A stretch of 64,000 nucleotides of DNA from contig NZ_HE978574.1 in assembly GCF_000311845.1 (NCBI RefSeq), positions 1,083,248 through 1,147,247 of the forward strand. The letters run 5' to 3'. This DNA comes from Enorma massiliensis phI. GTDB taxonomy: Bacteria; Actinomycetota; Coriobacteriia; Coriobacteriales; Coriobacteriaceae. The notes under the pieces were generated by a model. That model saw only the letters and a list, made by a program, of their open reading frames with translations. It did not search any database and was not told the DNA's origin. Positions 2,304-8,257 of the stretch are shown piece by piece (position 1 is the stretch's first letter; each line of letters starts with the position of its first letter). The position numbers were made by a program, and so were the translations under genes.

Positions 2304-3977
2304 ATGGCAGAGTACAAGACCGATATCGAGATTGCCCAGGAAGCCGAGATGTGGCCCATCACGCGGGTCGCCGAGGCGGTCGGCCTCACTGACGAGCAGC
2401 TCGAGCATTATGGTACGTACAAGGCGAAGGTCGATATCCACGCTCTGCGCGACCTGCCCCGTAAGGCCAAGCTCGTGCTTGTGACGGCAATCAACCCCAC
2501 GCCGGCGGGCGAGGGCAAGACCACGACCTCCGTTGGTTTGGCGGACGCCCTCACGCGATTGGGCAAGAAGGCGGTGCTGGCGTTGCGCGAGCCCTCGCTC
2601 GGGCCGGTCTTCGGCATCAAGGGCGGTGCGGCTGGCGGCGGCTATGCCCAGGTGGTTCCCATGGAGGATATCAACCTGCATTTCACGGGCGACTTCCATG
2701 CCATCGGTGCTGCCAACAACCTTCTTGCCGCCATGCTCGACAACCATATCCAGCAGGGTAACGCCCTTGGCATCGATCCAAAGCAGATCGTGTGGAAGCG
2801 CGCGGTCGATATGAACGATCGCCAGCTGCGCCACATCGTGGACGGTCTTGGCGGAAAGGCGCAGGGTGTTCCCCGTGAGGACGGCTTCGACATCACCGTG
2901 GCCTCTGAGGTTATGGCAGCGTTCTGCCTCGCGAGCGGCCTTATGGACCTGAAGGAGCGCCTGGGCCGCATGGTCGTGGCCTACACCTACGGCGGCGAGC
3001 CCGTCACGGCCTCCGACCTGCATGCCGAGGGCGCCATGGCGGCGCTCCTCAAGGACGCCATCAAGCCCAACCTCGTGCAAACGCTCGAGCATACGCCGGC
3101 GTTCGTGCACGGAGGCCCCTTCGCGAACATCGCGCATGGATGCAACTCGGTCCAGGCGACCGAGACCGCGCTGAAGCTGGGCGATTACGTGGTCACCGAG
3201 GCAGGCTTCGGTGCCGACCTGGGTGCCGAGAAGTTCCTCGACATCAAGTGCCGCATGGCGGGCCTCGACCCCGATGCGGTGGTGATCGTGGCCACGGTGC
3301 GCGCGCTCAAGTACAACGGAGGCGTGCCCAAGGCTGAGCTGACGAGCGAGAATCTCGAGGCGCTCGAGGCGGGCATCCCCAACCTGCTCCGCCACGTCTC
3401 GAACATCCGCGACGTCTACGGTCTGCCCTGCGTGGTCGCCATCAACGCATTCCCCACGGACACCCCGGCTGAGCTTGCCCTGGTGGAGCGCAAGTGCCAG
3501 GAGCTCGGCGTGAACGTCGCCCTCTCCGAGGTTTGGGCGAAGGGCGGCGAGGGCGGCGAGGCGCTCGCCGAGGAGGTCATGCGTCTCTGCGAGGAGCCCC
3601 ACGAGTTCCGTTATTCGTACGAAACCGGCTCCTCGATCGAGGATGCCCTCGATGCCATCGCGACCAAGATCTACCATGCGGACGGCGTGGACTACACGCC
3701 TGCCGCCAAGCGCCAGCTTGCTCAGCTCAAGGCGAACGGGTTCGGTAACCTTCCTGTCTGCGTGGCGAAGACGCAATATTCCTTCACGGACGATCAGCAT
3801 AAGCTCGGCGCGCCCGAGGGCTTCCGCATCACGGTGCGCAACCTTCGCGTCTCGGCGGGTGCCGGTTTCGTGGTGGCGCTCACTGGTGACATCATGACGA
3901 TGCCCGGCCTGCCCAAGACGCCGGCTGCGGAGCGGATCGATGTCGATGAGAACGGCGTGATCACCGGTTTGTTCTAG
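2304..3977 (+). CDS. fhs: Formate--tetrahydrofolate ligase
   Basis: Joins formate to tetrahydrofolate using ATP, giving 10-formyl-THF for purine synthesis, formyl-Met-tRNA and acetogenic-type C1 metabolism. The protein is 557 residues, the usual length for the monofunctional bacterial enzyme. The nucleotide-binding loop [11 protein letters not shown] is at residues 65-75, followed by family signatures such as [14 protein letters not shown] and the C-terminal [16 protein letters not shown] 18 nt upstream is in frame, but the GAGAGGGG ribosome site fits the ATG. It heads a folate cluster with fchA and folD downstream. The gap of about 320 nt to fchA carries a long palindrome, so these may be separate transcripts. 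Confidence 0.97.
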
Positions 3978-3986
3978 TGCTTTTTC

Positions 3987-4078
3987 GGCCCGGAGGGTGT
4001 TTCCTTCGGGCGTAGTCCTCGGATTTCGACCGAGTCGAAATCCTGCGGGAAACGCCCTGCGGAAACACCCTCCGGGCC
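3987..4078. repeat. 92-nt nested palindrome between fhs and fchA
   Basis: Three nested inverted pairs share one axis. The outer 18-nt arms at 3987-4004 and 4061-4078 match exactly, a 6-nt inner pair lies at 4008-4013 and 4052-4057, and a 9-nt central pair lies at 4021-4029 and 4035-4043. A T-run (3981-3985) on the left side would follow the hairpin only on the minus strand, so it is not a simple terminator for fhs. It resembles a mobile palindromic (REP/MITE-like) element. Confidence 0.6.
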
Positions 4079-4297
4079 ACGTGGGCGAGCATCGCTGCGC
4101 TTGCTCGCTATTGGACATGGTCGTCTGCTTGGAATTCTAGGGCATCCCTCTTGGTAAAGACGGTCTGTGCGCACGGTTGCCGGCACTGAAAGATTTTTTA
4201 AGATGTCCCTGCCGGCGCGCGGGGCGGGTGCTTCTGTGGCAGGATAGACCAGTTGCTGAAGGCACTTTTGCAGCAAGATGGAGACAAGGAGGTTGCC

Positions 4298-4945
4298 ATG
4301 CGTGACAACCGTGATACGCAACAGAAGCTGACCGAACGCTCCTGCGTTGATTTTGCCGCTGCGCTCGCCGCGAAGCAATCGGTTCCCGGCGGCGGGGGTG
4401 CGGCTGCGCTCGCCGGAGCGCTCGGCACCGCGCTCTGCTCCATGGTGGCTCACTATACCGTGGGGAAAAAGGCCTACGCCTCCGTGCAGGACGATATCGA
4501 GCGCATTCTCATTGAGGCAGAGGATGTGCGCGAGAATCTCATGGGGCTCATCAACGCCGACGCCGAGGCGTTTGAGCCGCTCGCGCGCGCCTATAGCATT
4601 CCGAAGAGCGATCCGGCGCGTGCGCGTACCATAGAGCTCGCTACAAAGACGGCCTGCTCCGCTCCCATCGAGATGATGCGCCAGTGCGCACGCGCGGTGC
4701 CGCTTTTGGAGGAGCTGGCGGAGAAGGGCAGCCGTCTGCTCCTCTCCGACGTGCTGTGCGGTGCGGCGCTGTGCGGCGCAGCTCTCGTGGCATCGAGTGC
4801 GAACGTCTACGTTAATACGGGCACGCTCGGCGATCGTGAGTTCGCCGAGGAGCTCGAAGCCGAGGCCGACGCCCTCATCGGTGAATACGCACCGCGTGCC
4901 CAGGCGGTGGTCGACGCGATGCGCGCCCATCTGAGGAGGGGTTGA
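4298..4945 (+). CDS. fchA: Methenyl-THF cyclohydrolase / formimino-THF cyclodeaminase family protein
   Basis: Member of the cyclodeaminase (FTCD C-terminal domain) family, 215 residues. In anaerobic C1 metabolism the stand-alone form, FchA, acts as methenyl-THF cyclohydrolase, interconverting 10-formyl-THF and 5,10-methenyl-THF. The N-terminal region with SVPGGGGAAALAGALGTALC is the family's Gly-rich folate-binding signature. The rest is helical, with acidic and Ala-rich segments. The start follows a textbook AAGGAGG at 4286-4292. The stop is 2 nt from the folD ATG, so the two are probably translationally coupled. Placement between fhs and folD favours the cyclohydrolase role over histidine degradation, and no hut genes are visible. 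Confidence 0.9.
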   Translation: MRDNRDTQQKLTERSCVDFAAALAAKQSVPGGGGAAALAGALGTALCSMVAHYTVGKKAYASVQDDIERILIEAEDVRENLMGLINADAEAFEPLARAYSIPKSDPARARTIELATKTACSAPIEMMRQCARAVPLLEELAEKGSRLLLSDVLCGAALCGAALVASSANVYVNTGTLGDREFAEELEAEADALIGEYAPRAQAVVDAMRAHLRRG

Positions 4946-4947
4946 TC

Positions 4948-5802
4948 ATGGCGGAGCTATTGCGTGGCGCCCCGGTCGCTGCGTCCCTGACCGAGGAGCT
5001 TAGCTATCGCACCCGTGCGCTTCGGTCGCGCGGGATCGAGCCCACCCTCGCGATCGTTCGCGTGGGGGAGCGTTCCGACGACCTTGCCTATGAGCGGGGC
5101 GCCCTGAAGCGGGCGGAGCGCGTGGGGCTGACGGTCCAGAGGGTCCTCCTTCCCGCGGATTGCGCGCAGGATGAGCTCATCGCTGCCATCGAGCGCGTAA
5201 ATGCCGACGCCTCTGTCCACGGCTGCCTCATGTTCAGTCCTCTTCCCCCTCATCTCGATGAGGCGGCGGCTCGGGCCGCGCTCGATGCTTCCAAGGATGT
5301 TGACGGCATAACACCGGGATCGCTCTTCGGTCTCTACGCGCGCGAAGCGGTCGGCTTCGCGCCCTGCACCGCCGAGGCGGTGGTCGAGCTGCTCGAGCGC
5401 TCCGGCGTCGCGCTCGAGGGTTCGCGCGTCTGCGTGGTCGGTCGTTCGCTCGTGATCGGCAGGCCGGTGTCGCTTATGCTGCAGGACCGTAACGCGACTG
5501 TGACCATGTGCCACACGCGCACGCGTAATCTTGCGGAGGAGTGCCGCCGTGCCGATGTGCTCGTGGTTGCGGCGGGGCATGCGGGCACGATTGGCGCGGA
5601 CTGTGTCTCCTCGGGTCAGGTCGTGGTCGATGTGGGCATCAATTGGGACGACGAGGCGGGAAGACTCGTGGGCGATGTGGCCTTCGAGGAGGTCGAGCCG
5701 TTGGTGCGAGCGATAACCCCGGTTCCGGGTGGAGTGGGCGCGGTCACGACGGCCGTGCTCGCCAAGCACGTGGTCGAGGCCGCGGAACGTGCATCAGCTT
5801 GA
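4948..5802 (+). CDS. folD: Methylene-THF dehydrogenase FolD, cyclohydrolase residues replaced
   Basis: 284 residues, normal FolD length. FolD normally oxidises methylene-THF to methenyl-THF with NAD(P)+ and then hydrolyses it. The dinucleotide-binding region with VVGRSLVIGRPVSLML and the C-terminal ITPVPGGVG motif are intact, as is the folate-site Tyr48 and the D119 of KDVDG. Two residues essential for cyclohydrolase chemistry are changed: the catalytic Lys (E. coli Lys54, human Lys56, four residues after the Tyr) is Ala52, and the Gln of the VQLPLP motif is Phe96. With fchA directly upstream, a dehydrogenase-only enzyme is the natural reading. A TTG at 4942 is also in frame; the ATG is preferred behind the GAGGAGGGG box. 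Confidence 0.93.
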   Translation: MAELLRGAPVAASLTEELSYRTRALRSRGIEPTLAIVRVGERSDDLAYERGALKRAERVGLTVQRVLLPADCAQDELIAAIERVNADASVHGCLMFSPLPPHLDEAAARAALDASKDVDGITPGSLFGLYAREAVGFAPCTAEAVVELLERSGVALEGSRVCVVGRSLVIGRPVSLMLQDRNATVTMCHTRTRNLAEECRRADVLVVAAGHAGTIGADCVSSGQVVVDVGINWDDEAGRLVGDVAFEEVEPLVRAITPVPGGVGAVTTAVLAKHVVEAAERASA

Positions 5803-6027
5803 TGGCTTTTGCGCAGCTGCGCAGATTCCAGCCGCCGCGTGCTGCCTCAGCCTGCTTGTCGCATGCTTCGGGGTGTTGTCGTGCGGAATGGCCCGCGAAG
5901 CACTCGATGTGCCCGGTATCTGGTACCATGCTTCGGCAGATTGGGCATGAACAGCCATATCCGGCACAGGAGTTGCCGGGGTTCATTGAATGGCGCCTGC
6001 GGGTTCGGGCGCACGAGAGGGGCGGCG

Positions 6028-6594
6028 ATGGCGGTCGATAAGGCGCGCGCGGAAGCAGCGATTCGCGAATTCTTGATTGCGGTGGGCGAGGACCCGGACC
6101 GTCCAGGTCTCTTGGAGACGCCCGACCGTGTGGCCCGTGCGGCACAGGAGGTGCTCGGGGGGTACGACGAGGACCCTTCGCTGCATCTTCGCAAGCAATT
6201 CCATGAGAACGATAACGAAGAGATGGTCATCGTGCGCGACATTCCCTTCTCGTCGCTTTGCGAGCACCATATCTTACCGTTTACCGGCAAGGCGCATGTG
6301 GCCTATATTCCACATGAAGGGCGCATCACCGGGCTCTCGAAGATCGCCCGCTGCGTGAACGGTTATGCGCGCCGCTTGCAGCTGCAGGAGCGACTCACGG
6401 CCCAGATCGCGGACGCGATGATGGCAGAGCTCAGGCCGCGCGGCGTTCTCGTGGTGCTCGAGGCGGAGCACATGTGCATGACCATGCGCGGCGTGCGCGC
6501 AGCCGGCGCGCTCACCACGACCTCTGCCGTGCGGGGTACGTTCCGCTCCGATATCCGTACGCGCGAGGAGGCGCTCCGCCTCCTTGGCCTGTAG
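6028..6594 (+). CDS. folE: GTP cyclohydrolase I
   Basis: First enzyme of folate synthesis: converts GTP to 7,8-dihydroneopterin triphosphate. 188 residues, the usual size. The zinc ligands are visible as Cys78 and His81 in [11 protein letters not shown] and Cys150 in [11 protein letters not shown]. The conserved GLSKIARCV stretch and C-terminal helices are also typical. An open frame extends about 220 nt upstream, but the family N-terminus and the GAGAGGGG box fit the ATG used here. It follows folD by about 225 nt. The rest of the dihydrofolate branch (folB, folK, folP) is not in this neighbourhood, but folC lies about 9 kb downstream. Confidence 0.96.
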
Positions 6595-6610
6595 GCATGT
6601 TGGGTGCGGT

Positions 6611-6674
6611 ATGAGACAGTTGTGCCGGGTTAATCTGTCTCATGAGACAGATTAACCCGGCACAACTGTCTCAT
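6611..6674. repeat. 64-bp perfect palindrome
   Basis: Positions 6611-6642 are the exact reverse complement of 6643-6674 with no loop. The arms carry the words GAGACAGTTGTGCC and TTAATCTGTCTCAT. It lies 17 nt after the folE stop and 40 nt before the FNT start. A 32-bp loopless stem without a T-run is not a normal terminator and looks like a dispersed palindromic element. Confidence 0.85.
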
Positions 6675-6713
6675 CTGCCAGCTCACCCTTGACTTCTGTA
6701 TGAAAGGTTTTCC

Positions 6714-7526
6714 ATGGCATCAGATACTCCTACGATGCGGCCGCTGCTTACTCCCGCTGAGATAGAGGCCAAGGCCGAGGAAGCGGGAGAGGCCAAGGCA
6801 TCGCTTCCCGCTTTGCGCCTCCTGGTTCTCGCCATCCTTGCCGGAGCGTTCATCGCGTTCGGTGGGTCCTTCATGCTCCTGGTTCGCTCCGATGCGAGCC
6901 TTGGCTTTGCCGCCTCGCAGCTGCTTGGCGGTCTTGTATTCACGCTCGGGCTCTTTCTCGTGCTCGTTGCGGGCGCCGAGCTCTTCACCGGCAACTGCCT
7001 CATGGTGGCGGGTGCGCTTTCCGGACGCTACGCCTGGACGAGCGTGCTGCGCAACTGGGTGATCGTCTACGTGGGAAATGCAATCGGTGCCGTTTGCATC
7101 GCCGTGATGTTCTGGGCGGCGGGTATCTTTGCTTCGAATCACGGTGCGGTGGGGGAGATTGCCCTTTCGGTGGCGCTCACCAAGGCGGGGCTTGCCCCGG
7201 GCGTGGCGTTCGTGCGCGGTATCCTCTGCAACATTCTTGTGTGCTTGGCCGTGTGGATGGGGTTCGCCGGGCAAAGCGCCTGCGACAAACTGGCTGCGGC
7301 GATCTTGCCAGTCGTCGCATTCGTCGTCCTCGGCTTCGAGCACAGCATCGCCAATTTGTTCTTCCTCCCGCTCGGTTTCCTCGCTGAGGGTGCGGGAGTT
7401 GCCGGTGCGGGTGTGCTCACGGTTGCCGGTGTGGGTTTAAATCTGCTTTTTGTGACGGCTGGCAACATCGTGGGCGGCGCTCTCGTCGGCGCGGCATATT
7501 GGTTTGCCTATAAGCGGCAGCGATGA
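6714..7526 (+). CDS. Formate/nitrite transporter (FNT) family channel
   Basis: Six-helix membrane channel of the FocA/NirC family, 270 residues, which passes small monovalent anions such as formate across the inner membrane. A hydrophilic N-terminus of about 38 residues is followed by hydrophobic helices. The family signature GAELFTGNCLMVAGAL is present, as is the second-half FEHSIANLFFLPLGF, typical of FNT pore loops. The start has a GAAAGG box 7 nt upstream. Its position in a cluster with formate-THF ligase argues for formate as the substrate, in or out depending on growth. Nitrite or hydrosulfide cannot be excluded from sequence alone. The stop overlaps the next start (ATGA). Confidence 0.92.
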   Translation: MASDTPTMRPLLTPAEIEAKAEEAGEAKASLPALRLLVLAILAGAFIAFGGSFMLLVRSDASLGFAASQLLGGLVFTLGLFLVLVAGAELFTGNCLMVAGALSGRYAWTSVLRNWVIVYVGNAIGAVCIAVMFWAAGIFASNHGAVGEIALSVALTKAGLAPGVAFVRGILCNILVCLAVWMGFAGQSACDKLAAAILPVVAFVVLGFEHSIANLFFLPLGFLAEGAGVAGAGVLTVAGVGLNLLFVTAGNIVGGALVGAAYWFAYKRQR

Positions 7527-8257
7527 GGCTGGAGGAAGCTTTCGCCGAGGTTGTCGATGGGGTCGCTGCCGAAGAGTCTGTAGACAACAGGGCGCTTGAT
7601 GCCGCCGTCGCGGGCGTTGGTGCCAGAGGAGCCTGCTGCCCGGAAGGAGCCTGCCAGCCGCGCAAGCGTGCCCTGCGCAAGCTCCTGCTTCGCGAGCGTG
7701 CGGAGCAAACGCCAGACGAGCGGGCATCTATAGACACCCTCATCGCGCATCGCGTCATTGCCGCACCGGAGTTTGTGCAATCGGAGACGGTGCTCATCTA
7801 CCTGTCCTTCGCGTCTGAAGTCGAGACGCGCGGCATCATCCGCGCTGCTTGGGAGTTGGGGAAGGCCGTGGCGCTCCCGCGTGTCTGCGCTGCGCGCAGC
7901 CTGCGGTGGTATCGCGTCGACAGCCTTGACGGCCTTCGTGTGAGCTCGTTCGGCATCAAGGAGCCCCCTCCCCATGAGAATCGGGAGGTCGTCCCCGGCC
8001 CGGCTCCTGGGCATGTCGCCATCGTTCCTGGACTCGCGTTCGACTGCCAGGGGTTTCGCTTGGGCTACGGCGGAGGCTTCTACGACGTGTTTCTTGCTGG
8101 TTTCCCGGGCGTCTCCATCGGGTTGTGCCGTGAGCGACAGCTCTGTGCGAGCCTGGACGATCTAGGGGTGATCGATCCCCACGATCGACGCGTCGACTTC
8201 GTGGTTACCGAGCAGCGTATGGTTAGCAGCGCCTCGCCAACTTCAATTGTTGGTTGA
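7523..8257 (+). CDS. 5-formyltetrahydrofolate cyclo-ligase
   Basis: ATP-dependent conversion of 5-formyl-THF back to 5,10-methenyl-THF, rescuing a dead-end folate. 244 residues. The basic N-terminal family segment RKRALRKLLLRERA starts near residue 47, and the ATP/folate motif GYGGGFYD is at 181-188, preceded by DCQGFRL. The first 46 residues are an extra N-terminal extension with a Cys-rich patch (ACCPEGAC), not part of the usual fold. The start codon overlaps the stop of the formate channel by 4 nt (ATGA), so the two are co-translated. The context completes the C1 cluster. The usual symbols differ between organisms (ygfA, fthC), so none is assigned. Confidence 0.93.
   Translation: MRLEEAFAEVVDGVAAEESVDNRALDAAVAGVGARGACCPEGACQPRKRALRKLLLRERAEQTPDERASIDTLIAHRVIAAPEFVQSETVLIYLSFASEVETRGIIRAAWELGKAVALPRVCAARSLRWYRVDSLDGLRVSSFGIKEPPPHENREVVPGPAPGHVAIVPGLAFDCQGFRLGYGGGFYDVFLAGFPGVSIGLCRERQLCASLDDLGVIDPHDRRVDFVVTEQRMVSSASPTSIVG

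Follow-up and report, generated by a model that had tools for sequence, protein, structure and literature searches.

Why should a genome that encodes a FolD protein also encode, directly beside it, a separate enzyme for one of the two steps that a bifunctional FolD carries out? The question is raised by a stretch of 64,000 nucleotides from Enorma massiliensis phI (contig NZ_HE978574.1, positions 1,083,248 to 1,147,247; hereafter the window, in whose coordinates all positions are given). Here fchA (4298..4945, 215 aa), predicted to encode a stand-alone methenyl-THF cyclohydrolase of the FTCD_C family, has an ATG start preceded by GGAGACAAGGAGG and ends 2 nt before folD (4948..5802, 284 aa), the gene for a predicted monofunctional methylene-THF dehydrogenase. 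The initial annotation had placed the two genes at this distance, and the coordinates confirm it. The first gene of the fhs-fchA-folD cluster is fhs (about 2304..3977), encoding formate-tetrahydrofolate ligase (PF01268, 906.8 bits; NF010030 over its cut-off), and all genes named here lie on the plus strand. Downstream, and outside the two-step unit, comes folE for GTP cyclohydrolase I (6031..6594, start approximate; PF01227, 245.9 bits; TIGR00063 over its cut-off), followed by a FocA-like gene of the formate/nitrite transporter family (6714..7526; PF01226, 229.4 bits; TIGR00790 and TIGR04060 matched under their cut-offs) and the gene for 5-formyl-THF cyclo-ligase (7523..8257; PF01812; TIGR02727 over its cut-off). 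Since fhs lies upstream of the pair and these three genes downstream, the region 2304-8257 is a folate/C1 neighbourhood. Rfam at gathering scores returned a single tRNA for the whole window and no riboswitch near the cluster.

We consider it very likely that the window encodes the bifunctional FolD in split form. FolD would act as a dehydrogenase only, interconverting methylene-THF and methenyl-THF: its fold, its NAD(P) domain, Tyr48 and Asp119 are preserved, but the Lys and Gln on which the cyclohydrolase step depends are missing. FchA would interconvert methenyl-THF and 10-formyl-THF. With Fhs encoded upstream, the cluster would connect formate and 10-formyl-THF to methylene-THF. Both enzyme activities are ones that we infer, from observations on residues, predicted folds, co-occurrence, synteny and trees.

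With E. coli FolD (from MG1655) as the reference for the residue columns, the alignment is free of gaps around the sites concerned (YERGALK versus YVASKRK; MFSPLP versus VQLPLP). Tyr50 corresponds to Y48 (codon at 5089..5091), the catalytic Lys54 to A52 (GCC, 5101..5103), Gln98 to F96 (TTC, 5233..5235) and Asp121 to D119 (5302..5304). The initial annotation had named these two replacements and the retention of Tyr and Asp, and was right on all four residues. Y48 and D119 are invariant across 38 aligned FolDs of all types. The window protein belongs to the FolD family by both of its domains (PF00763, 102.8 bits; PF02882, 188.9 bits; both over the gathering score) and by its fold, as its AlphaFold model (pLDDT 96.2) reaches a TM of about 0.94 to solved FolDs at 36-39% identity; the rows of the structure-model alignment are the window and the fetched genomes only. 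The signature of bifunctional FolDs (Y-x3-K and V-Q-L-P-L-P) is absent from it, Ala52 and Phe96 standing in place of Lys and Gln. In solved FolDs the Lys, positioned by the Gln, takes part in the cyclohydrolase step, the Asp holds the pterin and the Tyr holds the substrate (PMC3338484, PMC6443876). The K54N mutant of E. coli FolD has undetectable cyclohydrolase and about 19% dehydrogenase activity, and Q98H about 1% and 8%, respectively (PMC5688156). From its sequence, the window FolD is predicted to be a dehydrogenase only, its cyclohydrolase residues having been lost; we assume that it carries compensating changes, since the E. coli mutants retain little dehydrogenase activity. It is possible, though quite unlikely, that this FolD is still bifunctional by way of another residue, such as the window's own Lys54, which corresponds to E. 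coli Lys56 and is retained, or of a water network, and that FchA redundantly adds capacity when flux is high. In a computational study of MTHFD2 the Lys could not be made to serve as the base and a proton relay was proposed, which leaves the role of the Lys open (PMC9173628), and the cyclohydrolase reaction also runs uncatalysed (PMC5688156). However, the K54N enzyme possesses Lys56 as well and loses the activity all the same, as Q98H very nearly does.

Redundancy also does not predict the distribution of the two residues in the class Coriobacteriia, for which we sampled 119 genomes, 43 with FTCD_C and 76 without, and found a FolD in 117. The initial annotation had proposed an alignment of FolDs from genomes with and without fchA, and its outcome is uniform: in the 43 FchA genomes, 44 of 44 FolDs have lost both Lys54 and Gln98, whereas in the 74 FchA-free genomes with a FolD, 77 of 77 keep both (Fisher p 5e-33, uncorrected for phylogeny; zero exceptions). 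Ala takes the place of Lys54 in 40 of these FolDs, Ile in 3 and Leu in 1; at the Gln98 position, Phe is found in 29, Leu in 12 and Met in 3. FchA and a FolD without Lys and Gln are found in the genomes that we take to be Cryptobacterium curtum, Eggerthella lenta and Atopobium parvulum (G004, G070 and G080), and the FolD of G104 (L038) has Ala and Phe at the two sites. The window genome has a single FolD, a second one with Lys and Gln being absent, and within the class a genome that has the pair retains no bifunctional FolD.

In every FchA genome of the class but one, fchA adjoins folD. In that one (G094; L066, L067), the Lys-less folD lies next to fhs and fchA is found on a separate contig; the pair can thus separate, and neither Lys nor Gln has been regained. 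Another genome (G100; L069, L070) has two fchA-folD pairs on separate contigs, both with a Lys-less FolD. All 43 FchA genomes encode fhs, 32 of them within about 5 kb of folD, but Fhs alone as the cause of the split was rejected, since it occurs in 90 of the 119 genomes and with both FolD types. A link to acetogenesis was likewise rejected. Acetyl-CoA synthase (PF03598) is absent from the window genome and from every FchA genome of the class, and the seven class genomes that do encode it have no fchA and a FolD with Lys and Gln. Judged by acetyl-CoA synthase in the genome, the cluster does not belong to an acetogenic Wood-Ljungdahl methyl branch.

The lost step is very probably performed by the separate upstream enzyme, FchA. 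The closest solved relative of the fchA product, which is encoded by the only FTCD_C gene of the window genome, is Methylobacterium extorquens FchA (7vg4; 8.7e-36, 38% identity), and its model (pLDDT 94.5) has a TM of 0.90 to that structure. It contains the FTCD_C domain (PF04961, 187.2 bits) with the PGGGG motif, and P30-G33 and D151 are invariant in 33 relatives. It scores 164.8 bits against the FchA equivalog NF045657, under the cut-off of 275, and the name FchA therefore rests on fold, function and context rather than on that model. The NCBIfam matches listed for FolD are all named bifunctional, the best scoring 250 against a cut-off of 421. As neither protein encoded at 4298-5802 is above any NCBIfam cut-off, the automatic names are likely to be "bifunctional FolD" and a generic cyclodeaminase/cyclohydrolase. 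The FTCD_C family does include both of the latter activities, 1o5h and 1tt9 are among the matches, and 33 of the 40 Bacillota genomes that combine FTCD_C with a Lys+Gln FolD also have a formiminotransferase, the other seven having mostly weak FTCD_C matches. One could thus propose that the upstream gene encodes a formimino-THF cyclodeaminase of histidine or purine breakdown and lies beside folD by chance. We regard this as very improbable and reject it for the class, since formiminotransferase (PF02971) was found in none of the 119 Coriobacteriia genomes, the control genome of T. maritima being positive. Its absence separates FchA from the cyclodeaminase of the histidine pathway, and it points to FTCD_C being a cyclohydrolase in Coriobacteriia. 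The structural proximity to M. extorquens FchA and the strict tie between FTCD_C and the residue loss in FolD also speak against a cyclodeaminase.

The association extends beyond the class. The Bacillota sample was a targeted one of 153 of 199 genomes, in which FTCD_C-positive and low-scoring genomes came first and FTCD_C-negative controls were added, and a FolD was counted as adjoining when it lay within 400 nt of the FTCD_C gene. Not one of the 45 adjoining FolDs has both Lys and Gln: 22 have lost both residues, 22 keep Lys with Gln98 changed to Glu, and one keeps Gln without Lys. The rule is that a FolD adjoining fchA never keeps the Lys-Gln pair, and the residue that is lost differs by clade. 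The initial annotation had named relatives with fchA and an intact Lys/Gln as evidence against its proposal. Such relatives exist in part, since the 22 Lys-keeping FolDs beside fchA indicate that loss of the Lys is not obligatory, but none keeps both residues. The FchA-linked FolD type of Bacillota L284-L303, which combines Lys54 with Glu98 ("ELPLP") and a GRGETVGKP nucleotide-site motif, forms its own clade. Human Gln100 mutants, studied by Sundararajan and MacKenzie in 2002, reportedly lack cyclohydrolase and have dehydrogenase activity, and by this result the Glu-type FolD would be monofunctional too. Bacillota genomes without any Lys+Gln FolD have FTCD_C in 69 of 70 cases. The remaining one (G332; L276, L325, L326) has three FolDs, none with Lys and Gln, and no match to FTCD_C, and either breaks the rule or is incomplete. 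FTCD_C-free Bacillota genomes have 43 FolDs with Lys and Gln, and their nine others are Asp-to-Glu second copies or belong to G332. In Clostridium and relatives, 21 genomes have a Lys-less FolD, and FTCD_C is present in 20 of them, compared with 0 of 29 genomes with Lys and Gln; FTCD_C is missing from G131, a small MAG whose FolD is Lys-less. Some genomes, with or without FTCD_C, have two FolDs, often in tandem, of which one has Lys, Gln and Asp and the other has Lys54 changed to Gln or Ile and Asp121 to Glu (Bacillota rows L255, L364, L365, L367, L366, L259, L375 and L264; also G183, G302, G229 and G357). These paired FolDs could form heteromers or serve a second function.

When and how were the residues lost? 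In a FolD tree of 185 rows (IQ-TREE quick, trait columns left out), the FchA-type FolDs of Coriobacteriia form one clade (SH-aLRT 78), nested within a 64-row clade together with FchA-type FolDs of Bacillota (SH-aLRT 97). Since the Lys+Gln FolDs of the class sit in a separate clade, its two FolD types are old xenologues and not intact and decayed copies of one gene. The FchA tree shows much the same partition, most FchAs of Glu-type loci grouping apart. Changes counted on the FolD tree were 6 for Lys, 9 for Gln and 15 for adjacency. Paired contrasts on this tree were not significant (8 pairs, about 0.5 informative on average), since independent origins are few. The residue loss is old, fchA and folD tend to travel together and have been exchanged horizontally, and the FolD type is an old subfamily common to Coriobacteriales and part of the Bacillota, inherited and exchanged with fchA. 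A recent decay in the window lineage after the arrival of fchA would also leave adjacent genes and missing residues, but it is highly improbable in light of the two clades and of a loss common to all FchA genomes of the class. The initial annotation had spoken of division of labour by domain decay. Division of labour is well supported at the sequence level, by a co-occurrence that is complete in the class and nearly so in Bacillota and by a displacement within one genus. Decay of a domain is not supported, as both activities share one site in one domain and the subfamily is old, confidently folded, shared with Bacillota and exchanged.

This displacement is seen in a neighbouring genus, g3, within the window's own family. 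In nine sampled g3 genomes and one of g5, fhs adjoins a Lys+Gln folD and fchA is absent; four other g3 genomes have fchA and a Lys-less folD. We compared the flanks of fhs in 12 of these genomes, eight with Lys and Gln (seven g3, one g5) and the four with FchA. Upstream of fhs, the two kinds share synteny. On the 3' side, folD follows fhs directly in 8 of the 8 Lys+Gln genomes, and tblastn detected no folD remnant at this place in the four FchA genomes, in which fchA-folD lies about 11 kb from fhs. Since the FolDs and FchAs of these four all branch inside family f2, the simplest reading is that the pair was acquired by transfer, a direction that we infer, and that the resident bifunctional folD was lost. 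One gene here stands for two with which it is never found in the class, so that a Lys-less FolD plus FchA would equal a bifunctional FolD, and the displacement is the best in silico evidence for this functional equivalence.

It is tempting to generalize that bacteria exchange two interchangeable solutions, a bifunctional FolD and a mobile fchA-folD pair, and that a FolD beside fchA is always one without cooperation of Lys and Gln, this having been abolished by replacement of both, by a change of Gln to Glu with Lys kept or, in Clostridium, by a change of Lys to Gln. We find this proposal somewhat more probable than its converse. If it is true, the loss of cyclohydrolase activity in FolD would be predictable from sequence, and the residue rule provides a quick test. 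Since carolacton, an inhibitor of FolD, is anchored by Lys54 and has no effect on E. coli K54N (PMC5688156), split-system FolDs should be insensitive as well, and Lys-less types, including that of Eggerthella lenta, would be so naturally. As databases name such FolDs bifunctional, metabolic models of common gut actinobacteria credit FolD with an activity that it probably does not have, and they may count fchA as dispensable. The occurrence of two folD types within one genus is moreover a natural gene-swap experiment on splitting versus fusing the two steps. A dehydrogenase-only FolD together with FchA is already known. The residue rule with its exceptions may be new, as may the swap within a genus, but that a literature search returned no paper stating the rule is weak evidence of novelty, as subscription journals lay mostly outside the search.

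Aluri, Sah, Miryala and Varshney are said to have described in 2016 a dehydrogenase-only FolD with separate FchA and Fhs in Clostridium perfringens. The window resembles this system in all three components, its own activities being predicted: its FolD has lost Lys54 and Gln98 and kept Tyr and Asp, and its genome has FchA and no other FolD with Lys and Gln. The two differ in FolD clade, in the substitutions and in that fchA is not adjacent in C. perfringens, which was compared through relatives (nearest record 97% identical to an approximate query); in the close clostridial relatives Lys54 is changed to Gln and Gln98 to Leu, and fchA lies elsewhere in the genome. Acetogens also resemble the window in a separate cyclohydrolase and dehydrogenase and in the fhs-fchA-folD set, a likeness drawn from published reports: monofunctional enzymes of the methyl branch have been reported for Acetobacterium woodii and Clostridium formicoaceticum (PMC9124964), and fhs, fchA and folD of C. 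autoethanogenum have consecutive locus tags (PMC9618320). However, the window genome has no acetyl-CoA synthase gene, and its pathway is not the acetogenic one. M. extorquens FchA belongs to the same family as the window protein, but the dehydrogenase that partners it is MtdA and not FolD (PMC9618320). A parallel in residues is provided by the carolacton-resistant E. coli K54N and Q98H enzymes, which are altered at the same two positions and have lost all or nearly all cyclohydrolase with dehydrogenase partly kept (PMC5688156). These are laboratory single mutants, whereas the window FolD carries a natural double substitution that is fixed in its subfamily.
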